A stretch of 64,000 nucleotides of DNA from Kaistia terrae (GTDB lineage: Bacteria; Pseudomonadota; Alphaproteobacteria; Rhizobiales; Kaistiaceae), in assembly GCF_026344005.1 (NCBI RefSeq), contig NZ_JAPKNH010000002.1, positions 62,001-126,000 on the forward strand, read 5' to 3'. The notes under the pieces were generated by a model. That model saw nothing but the letters and a program-made list of their open reading frames with translations, made no database searches and was not told where the DNA came from. Made by a program: the position numbers and the translations under genes. This document shows, piece after piece, positions 20,858-30,406 of the stretch; position 1 is the stretch's first letter; each line of letters opens with the position of its first letter.

Positions 20858-23581
20858 GTGCCTCTGTTCCAGAGACATGATCGCTATCCTGATCCGGATC
20901 CAATGACGGTTGCATCTGTCGTCGACCCTCCAGCCGAAGCGCAGCGCCGCACGAATGTGCCGCGGCGCTTCGGTGACGCCATCGAACGCCCGTTCCTGAT
21001 CGATTGCATCCGCCACGGCATTGCCGGGCAGGTCGTCGTGCTGCAGGCGCCGTCCGGCTTCGGCAAGACGGAGCTGCTTTCCGCCGCTTTCGCCAATCTG
21101 CCCGAGCCGGGCGACCGCTTCGGTTGGCTGACCGTATCGGCGATCGACTCCGATCCTGCCGTATTCCTCGACGGCATCGCGGCGGCGTTCGGCTTGCAGC
21201 CGCGCCCGCGCGTCGACGCCGATATCGAGGCTTCGGCGCAGCGCCTGCTGGCGCGGCTTGCCGATGGCGGCGAGCGCTTCGTGCTGTTTCTCGACGAGTT
21301 CCAGACCGCCGGTGGCGAGGCTTTTCTCGCCTGCTGTTCGGTGCTGTTCCGGCATCTGCCGGACAATGTCCGCCTCGTCATCGCCTCCAACAGCCGGCCG
21401 GACATTCCGCTGTCGCGCTTTCGCCTGCGCGGCTTCCTGACGGAGTTGCTTTCGGGCGATCTCGCCTTCACCCGGACCGAGATGCGACGGCTGCTGGGCA
21501 AGCGGCTGGCGCCGAACGAGCTGGATGCGTTTGCCGAGCTCACGGGCGGCTGGCCGGCGCTGGTACAACTGGCCGTGCCGCTGCTGGCATCGGGCCAGGA
21601 AACGCGTGATCGCGCCGAACTGCTCGACGGCACGCACCGGACGTTTCGAGACTTCATGTTCGAGGAGATCGTCCCGCGCATTCCTCCCGACATGCGCGAG
21701 GCGCTGACGGTCTGCTCGATCCTCGCCGATTTTCCCCTCGATCTCGCCTCGCATCTCGCCGGCGTCGCCGTCGAGCAGCGGTCGGTCCGGGATCTCGAGG
21801 ATTTCGCGCCGATCATCGTGCCGGTCGACCAGCGGCCGGGCTGGTTCCGCCTGCATCCGGTGCTGCGCGTCACCGTCTCCTCGCAGCTGCAATTGCACCC
21901 TTCCGAACGCGTGCTGGCGCTGCATTCCAAGGCTGCGGCCTGGTTTGCTGCCCGCGACCATCTCGAAAAGGCCGTGACGCATGCGTCGCTCGCCGGCGAT
22001 TTCGCGCTCGCCGCCGAGACCATCCGCCGGGCCGGCGGCGTCAACATTTTCCTGCGCGCCGGCCATTCCGTGCTCGAAAGGCTGATCGAGAACATCCCCG
22101 CCGGCGACATCTATCGCTCGCCCAGCCTCAAACTGATCTACGCCCTCGTGCTCGCCAAGCGCGGCCGCATCCGTTCGGCGCGCGAAATCATCGTCGACGT
22201 GCGGGAATCCGGCGAGATCAGTGAACTCGCTTTGCTGCCTCCCGATGGCGAACTCGAGTTCAGCCATATCGAGGGGATGATCGACATCTACGAAGATTGT
22301 CACTTCGAGGATGAGCAGATCGAGACCCTGGAGCGCATGGTCAGCCGGCTCGGGCCGAAGGATACCTGGGACCGGGGCTGGCTCTATAACCACCTCTGCA
22401 TCGCCTATACGCGCCGCGGCGACCTCGACCGGGCCCGTACCAATGCGCTGCGCTCGCTCGCCTGCTACCGAGAGGAGCGGGCGGCCTATCCGCAGATCTT
22501 CATGTTGATCCATCTGAGCCTGGTCACCATGCTGACCGGCCGGCCCTCGGCGGCGCTGATGCTGGCGCGCGAGGCCGAGGAACTGGCGCAGCGCACGCAA
22601 TGGAGCGACCACAACCTGCTCGCCATCGCGCACATCCCGATGGCCGAGGCGCTGTACCAGCAGTCGGATGTGCGGATCGCCGAAAAGATGCTGCGCGACG
22701 GCATGCCGATCATCGCCCGAGGCGAGGGGTGGGTGGACCTGTTCGTGCGCGGCTATGGCACGCTCGCCCGCGCCCAGATGGGACTGATGGGCATCGAGGC
22801 GGCGCTCGCTGTCATGGACCGCGCCGAGGAAGTGGCGATCGAGCGCGACCTGCTGCGGCTGCGCCTCGCCGTGCGCATTCTCCGCGTCGAACTACTCACC
22901 CGCGCCGGGCTGCTGGAGGCGGCCGCCCAGATGATTTCGGACATGCCGGCGCTGGACCAGACCCTACTGTGGCCGACCTGGCGCGAATGGGGCGACGCCT
23001 CGGTCGCCTATGCCCGCGTCCTGGCCCGCACCGGCAAGCCGGACATCGCCATTTCCCGGCTCGAAACCCTGATGGCCCGCGCCGGTGCCCGCGATCACGG
23101 CAGCCATCAATTGGCCGGATCGGTCGTCTCGATCGAGGCCTATTGGGCCGCCGGCCGGATGGAGGAGGCGCTCGCTGCCCTGCAGCGCTCGATCGCGCTG
23201 GCGCAGCCGCAGGATTGCCTGCAGATCTTCCTCGACGAGGGCCAGCCGCTGTCACAGGCGGTGCGTGGCATCGTCCGACGCTTCGGTCTCTCGACCTTCA
23301 GCCCAAAGACGGCGGAGTTCGTCAGCCGCATTGCCGGCGCGCTGCATCAGGTCAACCCGAACCAGCCTGGCGCCGGCACCGATCTCCTGACGGCGCGCGA
23401 AGCCGAGATGCTGGAATTTCTGGCGCGCGATGCGACCAACAAGGAAATCGCCCGCGACCTCGGCCTGACCGAGGCGACGGTGAAGTTCCACCTGAAGAAC
23501 CTCTACGCCAAGCTCGGCGTCGGCCGCCGCAGCCTCGCCGTCTCGGTCGCCCGCAAGGTCAGCCTGCTCGAGGTCGAATAG
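20858..23581 (+). CDS. LuxR-family regulator with N-terminal ATPase (MalT/LAL-like)
   Basis: This 907-residue regulator has three parts. An N-terminal STAND-type ATPase carries the P-loop QAPSGFGKTEL (about residues 64-74) and VLFLDEFQ. A long helical, TPR-like region follows (about 330-820). The C-terminal LuxR helix-turn-helix (LTAREAEMLEFLARDATNKEIARDLG, then EATVKFHLKNLYAKLGV) covers about the last 65 residues. MalT-like proteins bind an inducer and ATP, then oligomerise to activate transcription. It lies 49 bases after the hydantoin-type operon and is its likely activator. The GTG at 20858 is weakly supported; ATG at 20903 is an alternative start. Confidence 0.88.
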   Translation: MPLFQRHDRYPDPDPMTVASVVDPPAEAQRRTNVPRRFGDAIERPFLIDCIRHGIAGQVVVLQAPSGFGKTELLSAAFANLPEPGDRFGWLTVSAIDSDPAVFLDGIAAAFGLQPRPRVDADIEASAQRLLARLADGGERFVLFLDEFQTAGGEAFLACCSVLFRHLPDNVRLVIASNSRPDIPLSRFRLRGFLTELLSGDLAFTRTEMRRLLGKRLAPNELDAFAELTGGWPALVQLAVPLLASGQETRDRAELLDGTHRTFRDFMFEEIVPRIPPDMREALTVCSILADFPLDLASHLAGVAVEQRSVRDLEDFAPIIVPVDQRPGWFRLHPVLRVTVSSQLQLHPSERVLALHSKAAAWFAARDHLEKAVTHASLAGDFALAAETIRRAGGVNIFLRAGHSVLERLIENIPAGDIYRSPSLKLIYALVLAKRGRIRSAREIIVDVRESGEISELALLPPDGELEFSHIEGMIDIYEDCHFEDEQIETLERMVSRLGPKDTWDRGWLYNHLCIAYTRRGDLDRARTNALRSLACYREERAAYPQIFMLIHLSLVTMLTGRPSAALMLAREAEELAQRTQWSDHNLLAIAHIPMAEALYQQSDVRIAEKMLRDGMPIIARGEGWVDLFVRGYGTLARAQMGLMGIEAALAVMDRAEEVAIERDLLRLRLAVRILRVELLTRAGLLEAAAQMISDMPALDQTLLWPTWREWGDASVAYARVLARTGKPDIAISRLETLMARAGARDHGSHQLAGSVVSIEAYWAAGRMEEALAALQRSIALAQPQDCLQIFLDEGQPLSQAVRGIVRRFGLSTFSPKTAEFVSRIAGALHQVNPNQPGAGTDLLTAREAEMLEFLARDATNKEIARDLGLTEATVKFHLKNLYAKLGVGRRSLAVSVARKVSLLEVE

Positions 23582-23640: not shown

Positions 23641-24648
23641 CTAGGTGGCTATGCCGTTGCGAGGCTGAAGGGGTTTGGGCAAGTCCAGCTCGCCCATGGC
23701 AGAACGCAACTCTATCTCGAGCTCGCGGCAAATCTGCGAAATCGGGACGTCGTTCGCGCCACCCTCGAAGGGATTGGATGTGCTCTCGCCGACCTGGTCG
23801 AGCGACATATACATCCAACCCAATAGCGCGCTGAATGGAATGGTCAGCCAGATCGAGATCACACCCCACACGCCGCCCAGCCGGCTCATTTCCGCGAAGA
23901 CCGGCACTGCGCCGAAGGGCAGGAGCGTGCAGAAGATCGCCACGAACATCGTGCTGACAATGGCATACTGGCGCGGGTAGGGGCTGTTCTTGATCCGGTC
24001 GCAGCGGGCCTGCTGGTCATGCAGGTCACGCAGCAGCTTGAGCAGTTCGGTATAGACTTGTGGCGCCAGGCCGGCATCGCGGAACAACAGATTGATCTGG
24101 TGCCCTTGCTGGTTGAGCAATTGCAGGGGCGCCGCGAGCATGCCGCTTTTCAGGATCTTTGCCGCTTCGTCGTGTCCCAGCAATGCCGTCAGCTCGTCGG
24201 ACAGAGACGTCGTGTCCTCGATGACGCGGTATCGTTTGCGAAACGCCGCATTGGATTTGCGCCCCATGGATTCCCAGGGCATCGGCCGGCGCAGGCAGAA
24301 GCGCAGGGCCGTCATCCAGGCGATATGGCGATAGACCAGTGCGCGCTTGGTGGGCTCGTCGGTGAAATCGCAACAGAAGCGCGACAGCATGCGGCTGGTC
24401 GCCGAGATCTGGGCAAAGGCCTGAAGAGCCTCGCTACTGCGCGCCAGGACCTGTGAATTTTTGAAGCCGGCCATCAGCGACACTGTCGTGCCCAAAACGA
24501 CGATGATCGGCCAGGGTACGGAGAAGCCCGCAATCGAGGGGATGCTGTAGGCCCCAATGGCACAGAGGCTCACCAGCACCATGAAAAGGATGCTGCCGCG
24601 CGACCACAGCGCAAATTCGATCGGCCTATAGGATCTTCCGACGTGCAT
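23641..24648 (-). CDS. Bestrophin-family membrane protein
   Basis: This 335-residue membrane protein fits the bestrophin/YneE anion-channel family. It has an N-terminal amphipathic start (GRSYRPIEFALWSRGSIL), then hydrophobic helices, including a second segment running into FKNSQVLARSSEALQAF, which corresponds to the family's region after helix 2, and two C-terminal membrane segments. A start at 24648 is chosen because an in-frame ATG at 24693 lies inside the promoter: a matching ECF41-type promoter sits at 24682-24708. Bestrophins conduct small anions or cations; the substrate here is unknown. Its promoter links it to the sigma factor encoded across the gap. Confidence 0.75.
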   Translation of the reverse strand: MHVGRSYRPIEFALWSRGSILFMVLVSLCAIGAYSIPSIAGFSVPWPIIVVLGTTVSLMAGFKNSQVLARSSEALQAFAQISATSRMLSRFCCDFTDEPTKRALVYRHIAWMTALRFCLRRPMPWESMGRKSNAAFRKRYRVIEDTTSLSDELTALLGHDEAAKILKSGMLAAPLQLLNQQGHQINLLFRDAGLAPQVYTELLKLLRDLHDQQARCDRIKNSPYPRQYAIVSTMFVAIFCTLLPFGAVPVFAEMSRLGGVWGVISIWLTIPFSALLGWMYMSLDQVGESTSNPFEGGANDVPISQICRELEIELRSAMGELDLPKPLQPRNGIAT

Positions 24649-24681
24649 GGGATGCCCCGAACTCAAGGTTGATGCATCCAA

Positions 24682-24708
24682 GACGAGACCCATGCGGACG
24701 GTGTGACA
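24682..24708 (-). promoter_or_regulatory. ECF41-type promoter driving the bestrophin gene
   Basis: On the minus strand TGTCACA (24708-24702) is followed after 16 bases by CGTC (24685-24682). This matches the -35 and -10 elements described for ECF41 sigma factors. The -10 region shares the 10-mer TCTCGTCTTG with the divergent promoter. It lies 33 bases upstream of the chosen bestrophin start. Confidence 0.75.
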
Positions 24709-24738
24709 TGCAGCGGGCAGAATCTTTTTCGAACCCCG

Positions 24739-24766
24739 TGTCACATCCGCCCCAGGCCATCTCGTC
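24739..24766 (+). promoter_or_regulatory. ECF41-type promoter driving the epimerase-CMD-sigma operon
   Basis: TGTCACA (24739-24745) is followed after 17 bases by CGTC (24763-24766), matching the published ECF41 promoter pattern. The start codon of the epimerase gene lies 57 bases downstream. Because the sigma factor is the third gene of this operon, the site implies autoregulation. Confidence 0.8.
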
Positions 24767-24823
24767 TTGCTGCTGAAGACGTCGCCAATCGCGGCACAGC
24801 GTCTCGAGCAAAGGGCAAGAACC

Positions 24824-25576
24824 ATGAAGATCCTCGTCATCGGCGGAACCGGCCTCATCGGCTCCAAGACCGTGCGCATACTTCTCGACCGCGGCCATGA
24901 GGTCATCGCTGCCTCGCCCAGTTCGGGCGTCAATACGATCACCGGCGAGGGCCTGGCTGAGGCCATGGTTGGTGTCGACGTGGTGCTCGACCTCGCCAAT
25001 TCGCCGTCCTTCGAGGATGCCGCTGTACTCGAGTTCTTCCAGACCGCCGGGCGCAACCTGCTTGCCGCTGAATCAGCCGCCGGCGTTCGCCATCACGTCG
25101 CGCTCTCGGTGGTCGGCACGCAGGATCTGTCCGAAAGCGGCTATTTCCGCGGCAAGCAGGCGCAGGAAGCCCTGATCAAGGCCTCGCCCATTCCCTATAC
25201 GATCGTGCACTCCACGCAGTTCTACGAGTTCCTCGGCGGCATAGCCAAGTCGGCCGGCGCTGAAGGCACGATCACCCTTTCGACGGCCTTCATCCAGCCG
25301 ATCGCCTCGCCCGACGTGGCGGCCGTCATGGCGGATGTCGCGCTCGCCGCCCCGCTCAACGGCACGCTCGAAATCGCCGGCCCCGAAAAAGTCCGCATGT
25401 CCGATCTGCTGGCCCAATATCTGCGCGATATCGGCGACACCCGCGCCGTCATCGGCACCCCGGAAGCGCTCTATTTCGGAGCCCCTCTGAACGATGACAC
25501 GTTGCTGCCGCGCGGCACGGCCCGCCTCGGCACCATCGGCTATGCCAACTGGCTCGCCAGCCAGCCCCCGCGTTGA
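24824..25576 (+). CDS. NAD(P)-binding epimerase/atypical SDR, ECF41-associated
   Basis: The 250-residue protein starts with a Rossmann fingerprint GGTGLIG (residues 7-13), typical of atypical short-chain dehydrogenases and NmrA-like proteins. ATG at 24824 follows AAGGG, and homology begins there. Later segments include HHVALSVVGTQ and GYFRGKQAQE. It is the first gene of an operon with a carboxymuconolactone decarboxylase-like gene (10 bases downstream) and an ECF41 sigma factor. Oxidoreductases and epimerases of this kind are known neighbours and targets of ECF41 sigma factors. The substrate is unknown. Confidence 0.85.
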   Translation: MKILVIGGTGLIGSKTVRILLDRGHEVIAASPSSGVNTITGEGLAEAMVGVDVVLDLANSPSFEDAAVLEFFQTAGRNLLAAESAAGVRHHVALSVVGTQDLSESGYFRGKQAQEALIKASPIPYTIVHSTQFYEFLGGIAKSAGAEGTITLSTAFIQPIASPDVAAVMADVALAAPLNGTLEIAGPEKVRMSDLLAQYLRDIGDTRAVIGTPEALYFGAPLNDDTLLPRGTARLGTIGYANWLASQPPR

Positions 25577-25586
25577 GGAGAGCTCG

Positions 25587-26051
25587 ATGAAGGCCAGACT
25601 GGACGATCACCTCAACAAAGCGCCGGCCGCCATCAAGGCCATCATGGCGCTTGAAGCGGCCCTCAGGACCAGTACTCTGGAAACTACCCTCCTGGAACTG
25701 GTCAAGCTGCGCGCTTCCCAGATCAATGGTTGCGCCTATTGCATCCATCTGCACGCCACATCCCTGCGCAAGTCCGGTGAAAGCGAAATGCGACTGTACC
25801 TGCTGGACGCATGGCGCGAGGCGCCCCACTACACGGCGCGCGAACGCGCGGCCCTTGGCTGGACGGAGACCTTGACCAGGCTGTCGGAAGCCGATGTGGA
25901 CGAGGCCGAGTACGAAATCCTCGAAGCCGCTTTCACGCCGCAGGAACAGGTCAACCTGACCCTTGCCATCGGCGCCATCAATCTGTGGAACCGCCTTCAG
26001 GTCGGCTTTGCCGTGCCCCCTCCATTCCCCGAGGGCGCCTATGACGCCTGA
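25587..26051 (+). CDS. Carboxymuconolactone decarboxylase/AhpD-like protein
   Basis: The 154-residue protein carries the AhpD core: a Cys-Ala-Tyr-Cys pair (Cys49, Cys52) and His56 in NGCAYCIHLH, the redox-active site of alkylhydroperoxidase-like members of the family. GAGGAG precedes the ATG. It lies between the epimerase and ECF41 genes and overlaps the latter by 11 bases. Such proteins are the hallmark partner of ECF41 sigma factors. A peroxide- or thiol-linked role is likely, but direct evidence for its substrate is lacking. Confidence 0.88.
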   Translation: MKARLDDHLNKAPAAIKAIMALEAALRTSTLETTLLELVKLRASQINGCAYCIHLHATSLRKSGESEMRLYLLDAWREAPHYTARERAALGWTETLTRLSEADVDEAEYEILEAAFTPQEQVNLTLAIGAINLWNRLQVGFAVPPPFPEGAYDA

Positions 26052-26904
26052 CCAGGCTTCGGACGTCTTCGAAACGCACCGGCGCCGGCTGGTCCGTCTC
26101 GGCTATCGGATGCTCGGCGGCCGCGCCGCCGCCGAGGACATCGTGCAGGATGCCTGGCTGCGCTGGTCCAATACGGACCAGTCCGCGGTTACCAATGTCG
26201 GGGCGTTTCTCACCCGCATCGTCACCCGACTGTGCCTCGATGAAATGAAATCGGCTCGCGCGCGGCGCGAGCTCTATGTTGGCAGCTGGCTTCCCGAGCC
26301 GATCCTCGAACCGGACGAGCCCGGCATCGATACTGACGAACTGACCATGACGCTCATGCTCGCGCTTGAACGCCTCTCGCCCCTGGAACGGGCCGCCTTC
26401 CTGCTACACGATGTCTTTGGCCAACCGCTCGACGAGATCGCCACCACGCTGGGCCGTGACGCGCCCGCCGTGCGCCAGCTTGCCTCCCGCGCCCGAAAGC
26501 ATGTGCAGGAGGCCCGCCCGCGCTTTCCCGTCGCCCGCGAGGATGGCGACCGCATCGCCCAGGCCTTCTTTTCCGCCGCTCATACCGGCGATGTCACCGC
26601 GCTGCGGGCGCTTCTGGCCGATGACGTCGTGCTGCACTCCGACGGCGGCGGCAAGGTCTTCGCTTTCCTGCGCCCGATTGTCGGCATGGATCATGTGCTG
26701 CGGATGTATGGCGGGCTCTATCGCAAGCTCGGCCCCGACTGGACCCAGTTCATCCGACCGGCCTGGATCGACGGCCTGCCCGGCTATGTCAGCCGCGAAC
26801 GCGGCGCGATCCTGCAGACCACCGCCTTCGCCATAGAGGGCCGCAAGATCACCGCCATCTACATGATGCGCAATCCGGACAAGCTCACCCATGTCGATGG
26901 CTGA
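26041..26904 (+). CDS. ECF41-type RNA polymerase sigma factor with SnoaL-like C-terminal domain
   Basis: The 287-residue sigma factor has region 2 (about residues 8-75, with AAAEDIVQDAWLRW) and region 4 (about 105-155). An extra SnoaL/NTF2-like domain (170-287) is diagnostic of ECF41. The three conserved ECF41 motifs are visible: WLPEP in the linker (83-87), DGGGK (201-205) and NPDKL (278-282). ECF41 members have no separate anti-sigma factor; the C-terminal domain modulates activity. It overlaps the preceding gene by 11 bases. Two TGTCACA...CGTC promoters upstream of the operon and of the divergent bestrophin gene are its expected targets. Confidence 0.93.
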   Translation: MTPDQASDVFETHRRRLVRLGYRMLGGRAAAEDIVQDAWLRWSNTDQSAVTNVGAFLTRIVTRLCLDEMKSARARRELYVGSWLPEPILEPDEPGIDTDELTMTLMLALERLSPLERAAFLLHDVFGQPLDEIATTLGRDAPAVRQLASRARKHVQEARPRFPVAREDGDRIAQAFFSAAHTGDVTALRALLADDVVLHSDGGGKVFAFLRPIVGMDHVLRMYGGLYRKLGPDWTQFIRPAWIDGLPGYVSRERGAILQTTAFAIEGRKITAIYMMRNPDKLTHVDG

Positions 26905-26923: not shown

Positions 26924-27862
26924 TCAGTGACCCGCGGTATCAGCTTCGATGGCTGAGGAGCCGACCTTCTGTTCGTTTCGATAGCGTGACGGCGACGTGC
27001 CATAGATCCGGCGGAAGCTGGCGCCGAAGGCGCTGTCCGAGCGATAGCCGAGAGTTGCGCCGATGCTGGAGACCGGCTCGACGCCACGCCGTAGCTTGCC
27101 GGCCGCCAGGCGCATGCGCCAGCGTGTCAGGTAATCCAGCGGCGCGAGGCCAACGCGCTGCTTGAACCGCGCGGCAAAGCTGGACCGCGATTGGCCGGCA
27201 AGGCGCGACAATTCGGTGAGCGTCCAATTGCGTTCGGGTTCGGCATGTACCGCCTGCAGCACCGGGGCAATGTGACGGTCGGTCAAACCGCTCAACCAGC
27301 CGGTATCATCGGCAGCCCGCTGCGCCAAGTGGGCGCGTAGCACATGGATGAAGGCCAGGCGCAGCAGGTCATTGCACATCAGTTGCGCTCCGGGCGCGCC
27401 GGAATCCCACTCGCGATCGAGCTGGTCGAGCAGCCAGGCGATTGGCGCAGCGGCGTCGCCCTTGATGACCAGAATGCGTGGCAGGGCATCGGACAGCACC
27501 ACGCCATCGATCGTATCGAGCCGCACGCTGCCACCGAGAATGGCGAAGTCGTTGCCCTCGCCCAATTGTGCCGCCATGCCCGAGCCGGAGAACACGTCCT
27601 GGGCCGCGACCATCGTCGCGTCCGGTGCGCTGGCCAGATCAAAGGCACCATTGGTGACGACGAAACAGTCGCCGGCCTCCAGGTGCACAGGTGCTTGATC
27701 CGCCGTGAGCAGCCAGCAGCCGCCATGGCGCACAACGTTGAACTTGATATTGGCCGGTGCCGCAAACCGAATGCCCCAATCGCCGCCCGCCTGCAGGCTG
27801 ATCGAGCAGAGCGCAACCGCATTGATGGCATTGAGGATGGCCGACAGGGCATCACTGGGCAT
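26924..27862 (-). CDS. AraC-family transcriptional regulator with N-terminal cupin
   Basis: The protein has about 312 residues. The N-terminal half is a cupin sensor (NVVRHGGCWLL, then VHLEAGDCFVV) and the C-terminal 100 residues hold two helix-turn-helix units (LTELSRLAGQSRSSFAARFKQ, then SSIGATLGYRSDSAFGASFRR). ATG at 27862 is preferred; a GTG at 27877 is an alternative start. It is divergent from the SDR gene at 27956, which is the usual arrangement for AraC regulators of this cupin class. The ligand is unknown. Confidence 0.88.
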   Translation of the reverse strand: MPSDALSAILNAINAVALCSISLQAGGDWGIRFAAPANIKFNVVRHGGCWLLTADQAPVHLEAGDCFVVTNGAFDLASAPDATMVAAQDVFSGSGMAAQLGEGNDFAILGGSVRLDTIDGVVLSDALPRILVIKGDAAAPIAWLLDQLDREWDSGAPGAQLMCNDLLRLAFIHVLRAHLAQRAADDTGWLSGLTDRHIAPVLQAVHAEPERNWTLTELSRLAGQSRSSFAARFKQRVGLAPLDYLTRWRMRLAAGKLRRGVEPVSSIGATLGYRSDSAFGASFRRIYGTSPSRYRNEQKVGSSAIEADTAGH

Positions 27863-27955
27863 GATTTGGACGATCACGATAGTATCCCGGATTTGGCCGA
27901 CTGGATTGTCTGGGTAGGTAGATCATATGCAGGGTCATTACCAGTGGAGATCAGC

Positions 27956-28924
27956 ATGACACAGCTTCAACATCCCATCGGCTCGCCGTTTTCCGCAGCC
28001 AGCACTGCTGCGGACATCGTCAGCGGAATTGACCTGTCCGGCAAGACGGCAATCGTCACCGGCGGCCATTCCGGCATCGGCCTCGAAACCGTGCGGGCAC
28101 TGGCCGGAGCCGGTGTCCGGGTGATTGTTCCGGCGCGCGACCCCGATCGTGCCACGGCCGCCCTCGCCGGAATTTCCAATGTCGAGATCGACCGGCTCGA
28201 CCTGGCTGATGCCGCCTCGGTTGCCGCCTTCGGCCGGCGCGTCTTCGAAAGCGGCCGTTCCATAGATATCCTGATCAACGGGGCCGGCATCATGGCTGCG
28301 CCATTGTCTCGCGATATCGACGGCCACGAAAGCCAGTTTGCGACCAACCACCTGGGTCACTTCCGTTTGACCGCGGCACTCTGGCCGGCGCTGATGCGCA
28401 ATGGCGATGCCCGGGTCATCGCCGTCTCATCGCGCGGACATCAGATCGCCGGAATCGATTTCGACGACATCGACTTCCTCGAACGTCCCTATGACAAATG
28501 GCTGGCCTACGGTCAGTCCAAGACCGCCAATGCGCTGTTCGCCCTCTCGCTGGACAAGCGGGGCCAAGCCGCGGGCGTGCGGGCCTTCTCGCTGCATCCG
28601 GGTCAGGTGCTGACCGGCCTGGCGCGGCATCTCTCGGAAGAGGAGATTGCCGGCTTCGACGCACGGGACGAACACGGAAATCTCCGTGTCGACCCGGCCA
28701 GGGGCATGAAGACGGTCCAGCAGGCGGCCGCGACAGCTGTCTGGGCCGCTACAAGCCCGCAACTACAGGGGCTCGGTGGCGTCTATTGCGAAGACTGCGA
28801 GATCGCTGCCATCAACACAGCCGAAGCCGGCCGCAAGGGCGTTGCTCCATGGGCGGCTGACCCCGTTTTGGCGGAGCGGCTATGGCTTGTTTCGGAAGCT
28901 ATGTCGGGCGTATCGATCGCCTGA
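27956..28924 (+). CDS. Short-chain dehydrogenase/reductase, retinol dehydrogenase-like
   Basis: The 322-residue SDR has the cofactor motif TGGHSGIG (35-42), NGAGIMAAPL and the catalytic Tyr-x3-Lys in YGQSK. The extended length and the C-terminal DPARGMKTVQQAAAT segment resemble the retinol/WW-domain oxidoreductase subfamily common in bacteria next to AraC genes. ATG at 27956 has GGAG upstream. It is divergent from the AraC gene (gap about 93 bases), its likely regulator. The substrate is unknown. Confidence 0.88.
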   Translation: MTQLQHPIGSPFSAASTAADIVSGIDLSGKTAIVTGGHSGIGLETVRALAGAGVRVIVPARDPDRATAALAGISNVEIDRLDLADAASVAAFGRRVFESGRSIDILINGAGIMAAPLSRDIDGHESQFATNHLGHFRLTAALWPALMRNGDARVIAVSSRGHQIAGIDFDDIDFLERPYDKWLAYGQSKTANALFALSLDKRGQAAGVRAFSLHPGQVLTGLARHLSEEEIAGFDARDEHGNLRVDPARGMKTVQQAAATAVWAATSPQLQGLGGVYCEDCEIAAINTAEAGRKGVAPWAADPVLAERLWLVSEAMSGVSIA

Positions 28925-28950
28925 CAGGATGAAGCCCTCCATCTCCTGTA

Positions 28951-28980
28951 GCCATTCTTGACTATTCAGTCCAGAATGGC
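28951..28980. promoter_or_regulatory. TetR operator, autoregulatory site (imperfect palindrome)
   Basis: This 30-bp imperfect inverted repeat has outer arms GCCATTCT/AGAATGGC and inner arms TGACT/AGTCC. It lies 12 bases upstream of the TetR start codon. Its AGTCCAGAA half-site is the same as in the perfect palindrome before the downstream SDR gene, so both are likely bound by the same TetR protein. Confidence 0.65.
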
Positions 28981-28992
28981 TAATTGGAGACT

Positions 28993-29577
28993 ATGGCAAG
29001 ATCCAAGGAATTCGATCGCGACGCAGCCCTGGCCCGAGCATTGGATGTGTTCTGGACCAAGGGATACGAGGGTGCATCGACGGACGACCTGCTCAAGGGC
29101 ATGAAAATCGGTCGCCAGTCGATGTACGACACTTTCGGCGATAAGCAGTCGCTATTCCTTGAAAGCCTGCGGTCGTACCACAAGCTCGACAACAAGAACT
29201 TCTTCGATCACCTGGGTGACAATCCTTCCCCGCTAGAGGTTCTGCACGGCTTTCTCGCCATTTTCACCCGGCGCAGCGCCGAGGAAAATGCACGCGGCTG
29301 CATGGGCATCAATGCCACTACGGCCTTCGGCCATGCCCAGCCGGAGGTGACAGCCCTCGCACGCTGCACGGCAACGAGTGTGGAGACCATGCTTGCCGGC
29401 CTGGTCGAGGCCGCGAAGGCGCGGGGCGAGCTCTCCGGGACACTGGACGCAATGGTTGCCGCCAGCTTCCTCTATGCGACCCTGCAGGGCCTGACGGTCC
29501 GGGCGCAGGCCGGTGCCAGCCGTGACGAGCTGGCCGCTGTCGCCCACTTCGCCATGAAAGCGCTCTCAGCGATGTAG
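28993..29577 (+). CDS. TetR/AcrR-family transcriptional repressor
   Basis: The 194-residue protein begins MARSKEFDRDAALARALDVFW, the TetR N-terminal helix-turn-helix (to about residue 55, with GASTDDLLKGMKIGRQSMYDTFGDK), followed by a variable ligand domain with a C-terminal-domain segment rich in Ala. ATG at 28993 follows GGAGA; a TTG nine bases earlier is less likely. It lies upstream of the SDR gene in the same direction. Related palindromes before each gene indicate repression of itself and of the SDR. Confidence 0.9.
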   Translation: MARSKEFDRDAALARALDVFWTKGYEGASTDDLLKGMKIGRQSMYDTFGDKQSLFLESLRSYHKLDNKNFFDHLGDNPSPLEVLHGFLAIFTRRSAEENARGCMGINATTAFGHAQPEVTALARCTATSVETMLAGLVEAAKARGELSGTLDAMVAASFLYATLQGLTVRAQAGASRDELAAVAHFAMKALSAM

Positions 29578-29616
29578 CCGCCGTCCCGATGCAACCTCAT
29601 CAACAAGCTTGCCTAA

Positions 29617-29638
29617 TTCTGGACTGATCAGTCCAGAA
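29617..29638. promoter_or_regulatory. TetR operator before the SDR gene (22-bp perfect palindrome)
   Basis: TTCTGGACTGA and its exact reverse complement abut to form a perfect 22-bp palindrome ending 33 bases before the SDR start codon. The CTGGACT core is shared with the site upstream of the tetR gene. Confidence 0.75.
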
Positions 29639-29671
29639 AATGCCTCTCTGTGCCTGACGAAAGGAAACACA

Positions 29672-30406
29672 ATGTCGGCATCTCTTCTCAACAAACGTGC
29701 CATTGTCACCGGGGGGTCGCGCGGCATCGGCGCCGCCATCGTCCGCAAGCTGGTCGAGCAGGGCGCCCAAGTGGCCTTCACCTATTCGGCAAGTCCCGAT
29801 GCAGCCAAGAGTCTGGTCGACGAACTTACCGCCACCGGCGGCACGGCCTTCGCTCTCCAGGCCGATAGCGCCGATCCTGCAGGCCTGCAGGCCGCTATTC
29901 GTCAGGCGGTCGATCGGCTCGGCGGTCTCGACATTCTGGTCAACAATGCCGGCACCCTGGTGCATGCGCTGATCGACGATTTCAGCCAGGCGGATTTCGA
30001 CAGGACCATGGCGATCAATGTGCGCGCGCCCTTCTTTGCCATGCAGGAAGCAGCGCGGCATATGCAATCCGGCGGCCGCATCATAAACGTCTCCAGCAAT
30101 GTCGCGGTGAGCGCGGCCGTGCCCGGTGCCAGCGTATATGGTCTGTCCAAGTCCGCGCTCACTGCGATGACGCGTTCCCTTGCCCATGAGTTTGCGCCAA
30201 AGGGCATCACCGTCAATGCTATCCAGCCGGGTCCAACCACGACCGACATGACCTCGGGCATGGAGGACTTCATCCTCGGCATGGTGCCGGCGGGTCGAAT
30301 GGCACATGCCTCGGAACCTGCAGCGCTCGTTGCCTACCTCGCCGGGCCTGATGCCGGCTTCATCAACGGCGCTGCCGTGACCATCGATGGCGCGATGACC
30401 GCATGA
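29672..30406 (+). CDS. Short-chain dehydrogenase/reductase (FabG-like), TetR-controlled
   Basis: The 244-residue classical SDR has TGGSRGIG (13-20), NNAG and the catalytic YGLSK, and ends in a typical INGAAVTIDGAM segment. AAGGAAA precedes ATG 29672. The gene lies directly behind a perfect 22-bp palindrome matching the site before the upstream tetR gene, so it is the repressor's target. A role in detoxifying or reducing a xenobiotic carbonyl is plausible but unproven. Confidence 0.9.
   Translation: MSASLLNKRAIVTGGSRGIGAAIVRKLVEQGAQVAFTYSASPDAAKSLVDELTATGGTAFALQADSADPAGLQAAIRQAVDRLGGLDILVNNAGTLVHALIDDFSQADFDRTMAINVRAPFFAMQEAARHMQSGGRIINVSSNVAVSAAVPGASVYGLSKSALTAMTRSLAHEFAPKGITVNAIQPGPTTTDMTSGMEDFILGMVPAGRMAHASEPAALVAYLAGPDAGFINGAAVTIDGAMTA

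Follow-up and report, generated by a model that had tools for sequence, protein, structure and literature searches.

In the 64-kb stretch of Kaistia terrae DNA analyzed here (the window), a gene for a bestrophin-family channel lies back to back with an operon that ends in the gene for an ECF41 sigma factor. The question that this arrangement raises is whether the channel gene is controlled by the sigma factor of the operon across the intergenic stretch. To our knowledge, the roles of bestrophins in bacteria are largely unknown. ECF41 sigma factors occur in 10 phyla, and no ECF41-related phenotype could be identified according to the available text of the founding study of ECF41-COE systems (COE, decarboxylase/oxidoreductase/epimerase) by Wecke et al. 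2012, in which the COE and sigma genes were the only detectable conserved targets (PMC3426412).

Gene Content of the Bestrophin-ECF41 Module

The module consists of 4 genes, the last 3 of which form the operon:

23641..24648, minus strand: bestrophin-family channel gene, 335 amino acids (PF25539, E 1.7e-35)
24824..25576, plus strand: epimerase-like NAD(P)-binding gene (NmrA/NAD_binding_10 in Pfam), 250 amino acids
25587..26051, plus strand: carboxymuconolactone decarboxylase (CMD)/AhpD-like gene, 154 amino acids, with a CAYC (CxxC) motif
26041..26904, plus strand: ECF41 sigma factor gene, 287 amino acids, with a WLPEP linker and a SnoaL-like C-terminal domain

The bestrophin matched PF25539 with 123.4 bits against a cut-off of 27, while no NCBIfam family was found for it at E≤0.001. 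It belongs to the same sequence family as the bacterial bestrophins of PDB 4wd7 (E 1e-16) and 4wd8, which we take to be a Klebsiella bestrophin homologue, and most of its length could be aligned to them, but the identity was low and the window protein contained insertions. The start of the gene was placed at 24648, because full-length homologues align from this position. An in-frame ATG at 24693 was rejected as the start codon, since it is located inside the spacer of a promoter motif (see below) and the homologues support 24648.

The sigma factor contained the sigma2 (PF04542, 48.4 bits) and sigma4 (PF08281, 52.9 bits) domains, both above the cut-off, and matched the SigJ subfamily NF007214 over its whole length (379.6 bits against a cut-off of 271). 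Its SnoaL-like C-terminal extension reached 26.7 bits for PF12680, slightly below the cut-off of 27, and was counted as present. The WLPEP linker motif, which is characteristic of ECF41 (PMC3426412), was located at residue 83. Judged by these features (sigma2, sigma4, SigJ match, tail, and WLPEP), the protein is an ECF41 sigma factor, with the definition taken from PMC3426412 and a review (PMC8999054), as far as their text was available. The sigma and CMD genes share an 11-nt overlap, and the adjoining COE-type genes, for the epimerase-like protein and the CMD, are located upstream. There was no anti-sigma gene beside it, the immediate neighbors being the CMD, epimerase-like, bestrophin, and AraC-type genes. 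The CxxC motif is conserved in ECF41-linked CMDs and has been taken as a hint of a role in oxidative stress (PMC3426412).

The locus thus resembles the ECF41-COE loci of PMC3426412 in its sigma2 and sigma4 domains with a fused C-terminal extension, the WLPEP motif, the COE genes upstream in the operon and the promoter motif TGTCACA-N16±1-CGTC, but differs from them in that a divergent membrane channel is added to a complete epimerase-CMD-sigma operon. Divergent ECF/COE pairs are known (55 of 373), and in many of them both sides bear a promoter; the few other promoter-bearing or intervening neighbors mentioned in the available text are mostly hypothetical proteins (PMC3426412).

Two Outward-Facing Promoter Motifs

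The 175-bp intergenic stretch was found to contain the following elements:

24682..24708, minus strand: ECF41-type promoter on the bestrophin side, with -35 TGTCACA (24708-24702), N16, and -10 CGTC (24685-24682), 33 nt from the start codon
24709..24738, no strand: the 30-bp gap separating the -35 elements, which includes an A/T-rich block (AATCTTTTT)
24739..24766, plus strand: ECF41-type promoter of the epimerase-CMD-sigma operon, with -35 TGTCACA, N17, and -10 CGTC

The left site, read from 24708 to 24682, points into the bestrophin gene and the right site into the epimerase-CMD-ECF41 operon; both agree exactly with the ECF41 motif as published (TGTCACA, 16±1, CGTC; PMC3426412), and the N17 spacer of the operon promoter falls within its range. 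Each CGTC is followed by TTG, and the 2 sites have the 10-mer TCTCGTCTTG in common as an extended -10 element. The pair of outward-facing sites with TGTCACA, this 10-mer, and spacers of 16 and 17 bp was present just as the earlier note had described it.

The pattern TGTCACA-N15..17-CGTC was observed 3 times in the 64 kb, compared with 0.06 times on average over 100 dinucleotide shuffles, none of which reached 3, and the full divergent pair was observed once in the window vs. never in the 100 shuffles. The third match (23250-23275, N15) was located inside a LuxR-type gene. In the complete 5.59-Mb genome, the N15-17 pattern occurred 7 times and a reversed control pattern once, which corresponds to an expectation of about 2e-4 sites for an intergenic stretch of 175 bp.

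Pairing of the Bestrophin with the Operon in Related Genomes

Within the genus of the window, a close copy of the bestrophin was identified in only 2 of 14 genomes, the window genome itself (G000) and G005. One ECF41-like sigma gene was present in 11 of the 12 genomes that lacked such a copy, and at the 6 ECF41-like loci inspected among these 11 genomes a CMD gene was located beside the sigma gene and there was no bestrophin. Because these relatives keep the sigma factor and the CMD without the bestrophin, the link between the 2 is not a general one.

A scan of genome contigs for the divergent promoter pair yielded at least 119 stretches, 80 of which were readable; the sample was uneven and the counts are lower bounds. 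Among the 80 readable stretches listed, this bestrophin was located opposite an epimerase-CMD-sigma operon in 2, both from Devosia sp. YR412 (G784). We searched 136 genomes from the family of this species and identified the bestrophin in 14 at E≤1e-60. In 6 of them (G784, G790, G888, G807, G876, and G867), the operon was divergent and both promoters were present, while no such operon was seen around the bestrophin in the other 8 in the stretch inspected, which was mostly 10 kb around the gene and in G902 a contig of 3.5 kb. No other bestrophin was found at E≤1e-60 in a sample of 385 genomes from the class, and a sample of 397 genomes from the order added 10 genomes with a bestrophin at E≤1e-30, in none of which the inspected stretch contained the sigma operon. 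A general linkage of ECF41 and bestrophin across the order or class was rejected for these 2 samples.

Devosia sp. YR412 contained a second copy of the module (L113 / L206:3477-6180), which appeared to have decayed: the bestrophin had a large internal gap, and the epimerase, CMD, and sigma factor were matched in separate pieces, with both promoters intact.

Together with the window, G005, and the decayed copy of Devosia sp. YR412, the 6 loci above make up a set of 9 loci in 8 genomes. As unlinked controls, we used 13 bestrophins of 55% to 70% identity, consisting of the 8 from the Devosia family and 5 (57% to 65%) from one genus of the order. Both promoters were kept at all 9 loci that pair this bestrophin with the operon; the search for TGTCACA-N16/17-CGTC in related genomes with a bestrophin beside ECF41, which the earlier note had proposed as a check, was hence positive throughout.

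Conservation of the Promoter Pair

The 9 intergenic stretches were 171 to 184 bp long. All of the 22 motif columns were invariant, compared with 35 of the 169 others (p=9e-14), and 11 of 11 columns were invariant on the bestrophin side (p=1e-7) as well as on the epimerase side (p=1e-7), where the columns are taken as independent and the loci come from related bacteria in 2 sequence groups, so that the p-values overstate independence. The same pattern was seen in the more divergent of the groups (G807, G876, and G867), in which the bestrophin was about 63% and the sigma factor 73% to 74% identical to that of the window: the motif columns matched at 22 of 22 positions vs. 66 of 169 others for G807 (64% bestrophin identity), and at 22 of 22 vs. 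67 of 169 for G876. An origin of the motifs by chance was ruled out by the shuffles and the nine-locus footprint.

The spacer on the bestrophin side was 16 bp at all 9 loci, with a distance of 32 to 33 nt to the start codon, and the spacer on the epimerase side was 17 bp at 7 loci and 16 bp at 2. Since the 2 -35 elements in the window are perfectly inverted, 30 bp apart, the repeat TGTGACA-N30-TGTCACA could also be read as a dyad operator for a dimeric regulator rather than as 2 promoters. We give this reading hardly any credence, because the distance between the arms ranged from 29 to 37 bp over the 9 loci while each -35/-10 spacing stayed at 16 to 17, both -10 elements were invariant to the same degree as the -35 elements, and the TGTCACA-CGTC pair occurs singly in front of CMD-sigma pairs in the genus of the window. 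A drifting gap between the -35 elements combined with fixed -35/-10 spacings is the pattern expected of 2 independent promoters and not of a single dyad operator.

The presence of the motif also tracked the operon in the loci examined. Over the 400 nt that precede the bestrophin start codon, the best match comprised 11 of 11 positions at each of the 9 linked loci, whereas none of the 13 unlinked bestrophins had the full motif within this distance; their best matches covered 7 to 10 of the 11 positions and were scattered in location. The highest of these was in G229 (10 of 11, N15, at 231 nt), the bestrophin of which was matched as 2 overlapping pieces. The difference between 9 of 9 linked and 0 of 13 unlinked bestrophins corresponds to a Fisher p=2e-6, for loci that are related. 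Among weak homologues (29% to 36% identity), the best upstream matches were 8 to 9 of 11 in the 4 that were scored, and no site was found in G245 and G043, which were scanned as whole loci only. A phylogeny of 22 rows inferred with IQ-TREE, from which 3 partial or odd rows (G902, G229, and G879) were left out, placed the operon-linked bestrophins on one side of a branch with modest support (76/86), while the 2 operon-linked groups stayed apart in a FastTree run with more rows; neither program included the decayed G784 copy, which was too short.

These data bear on the suggestion that only the right promoter works, the left being a non-functional by-product of the divergent layout and the bestrophin using another promoter. 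Known ECF41 regulons contain only COE and sigma genes in the available text of PMC3426412, and the decayed copy in Devosia sp. YR412 also has intact motifs, which means that intact motifs alone are no proof of use. Even so, we regard a non-functional left site as unlikely, as it equals the right site in invariance amid otherwise scrambled intergenic DNA and is missing from the 13 homologous bestrophins that have no sigma operon nearby. It is less likely still that the left promoter is read by a different ECF sigma factor. Such a factor could be at hand in the relative G005, which has 3 ECF41-like sigma genes, but this sigma gene was the single strong match in the window genome, where the only other match at E≤1e-5 was 28% identical over 142 residues (E 1.9e-9), and the extended -10 element TCTCGTCTTG is common to both sites.

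Predicted Coregulation of the Channel and the Sigma Factor

Two independent, outward-facing promoters for the sigma factor of the right-hand operon are thus the preferred reading of the intergenic stretch, and we consider it highly likely from the sequence comparisons that they co-switch the bestrophin gene and the epimerase-CMD-sigma operon via the operon's own sigma factor. We infer that this sigma factor binds and transcribes from both sites, and that ion flux would be affected as a consequence. In the published model, the fused C-terminal domain gates the activity of ECF41 sigma factors (PMC3426412; review PMC8999054, both as available in part). By analogy, once the fused SnoaL-like domain permits the sigma factor to act, RNA polymerase would transcribe in both directions, rightward through epimerase-CMD-sigma in a positive feedback loop and leftward through the bestrophin gene. 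Activation would raise the levels of the sigma factor, CMD, epimerase, and bestrophin jointly, and induction of the channel very probably accompanies that of the sigma factor.

The bestrophin would then be a second effector of a small stress module, the other effectors of which resemble redox enzymes, suggesting that the module responds to redox or electrophile stress and includes a channel as one of its arms. More speculatively, the channel might adjust ions or the membrane potential while the CMD and the epimerase deal with oxidative or electrophile stress. If the coupling is real, a channel as a conserved co-target would provide a concrete, measurable output of ECF41 (ion flux or membrane potential) and a way to approach the signal, as well as a regulatory context for a bacterial bestrophin.

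The bestrophin had been called an unusual ECF41 target, which agrees with the available text of PMC3426412, where only COE and sigma genes were detectable as targets. Similarly, the COE operon was the only target in studies of ECF41 in B. licheniformis, R. sphaeroides, and S. meliloti, as far as covered by the text available (PMC3426412, PMC6180224). The closest comparison is with RpoE9 of S. meliloti, an ECF41 factor that is likewise encoded in an alphaproteobacterial CMD-sigma operon, which has one mapped start behind TGTCACA-CGTC; unlike the operon in the window, that operon is the sole target and there is no channel gene, according to the available text (PMC6180224). No link of a bestrophin to an ECF41 sigma factor was found in the text retrieved in a literature search, and relative to the papers compared, as available, the channel is a new class of ECF41 target. 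For another lineage, a broader ECF41 regulon may already have been published, since the available part of PMC8999054 cites a study whose title concerns an ECF41 factor of Azospirillum and lateral flagella.

Probable Horizontal Transfer and Selection

The module proteins in the window were 87% to 94% identical to those in 3 Devosia-family genomes (G784, G790, and G888). For comparison, the identity of the ClpA protein was 73% to 74% to G784 and G790 and 72% to G807, the 3 genomes that this comparison covers, and 93% to 2 other members of the window's genus. Given 87% to 94% for the 4 proteins against 72% to 74% for ClpA, the four-gene module has probably been transferred horizontally as a unit, with both promoters kept at all 9 loci. 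The bestrophin dN/dS values were 0.08 to 0.20 in 4 comparisons, which suggests that purifying selection acts on the channel gene as it does on its partners.

Even G000 and G005 have different flanks, in that the LuxR-type gene next to the bestrophin in the window was absent from the 12 kb inspected in G005. To the right of the module, the window contains 4 optional neighbors:

26924-27877, minus strand: AraC-type regulator, collinear with both module copies of G784 and with that of G005
27956-28924, plus strand: SDR, likewise collinear with both module copies of G784 and with that of G005
28984-29577, plus strand: TetR regulator, adjoining the module in another placement in G888, G807, G876, and G867
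29672-30406, plus strand: SDR, adjoining the module in another placement in G888, G807, G876, and G867

These AraC, SDR, TetR, and SDR genes (26924-30406) recur with the module in some Devosia-family loci in different arrangements, and within the window no exact ECF41 motif was associated with them.

Other Twin-Promoter Loci and Genomic Sites

Of the 80 readable twin-promoter loci listed, 68 had a sigma match on one side, and the commonest pairs were sigma/other (35) and CMD/sigma (27), with partner classes based on mechanical ORFs, BLAST clusters, and the Pfam assignment of one representative per cluster. The recurrent "other" genes among the loci listed encoded ClpP-family (at least 12, in Burkholderiales), DoxX-like (at least 8), MFS (at least 6), and SDR (at least 6) proteins. 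They accounted for 30 of the 35 sigma/other loci listed (ClpP 12, DoxX 7 of the cluster's 8, MFS 6, and SDR 5 of the cluster's 6), the further ones having an alpha/beta hydrolase (L056), a glyoxalase (L064), or a Pyr_redox protein (L094), with L065 and L098 remaining; the Pfam scan gave no family for the ORF at L065. The SDR partners are arguably COE-like. Among the loci listed, the bestrophin is one of several unusual divergent ECF41 partners. In Burkholderiales, a ClpP-family protease (representative L051) was located opposite an ECF41-like sigma gene with the same kind of promoters, and the loci listed in this BLAST cluster were:

L046, L051, L059, L060, L077, L082, L087, L093, L097, L105, L107, L111: ClpP cluster

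The gaps between the opposed -35 elements (L042-L121) clustered at 10 to 13, 20 to 24, and 28 to 38 bp (62 genus/length combinations from the 80 loci listed). When gaps of 10 to 40 bp were searched, with kinship partly removed, none of 20,000 uniform samples was as periodic, the best period being about 11.5 (periods of 9.5 to 12 were tried). It is conceivable, at slightly less than even chances, that many ECF41 factors own 2 targets, the COE or sigma operon and, across a divergent promoter pair, a lineage-specific gene (the bestrophin in the window, and ClpP-family, DoxX-like, or MFS genes at other loci). The seeming phasing of the gaps would suggest that the geometry of the 2 polymerases on the template matters.

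The 7 exact N15-17 sites in the window genome were:

the two window promoters, the site in the LuxR-type gene, L017, L018, L019, L020

No plausible target was seen near L018 and L019. At L017:5151-5676 (G000 contig C23, 555150-555675), a perfect ECF41 promoter with an N16 spacer precedes a CMD gene without a sigma gene. The counterpart in G005 (L177) consists of a CMD gene followed by an ECF41-like sigma gene, the latter of which is missing at L017. As this orphan CMD has no sigma gene of its own, the ECF41 factor of the window may control it in trans.
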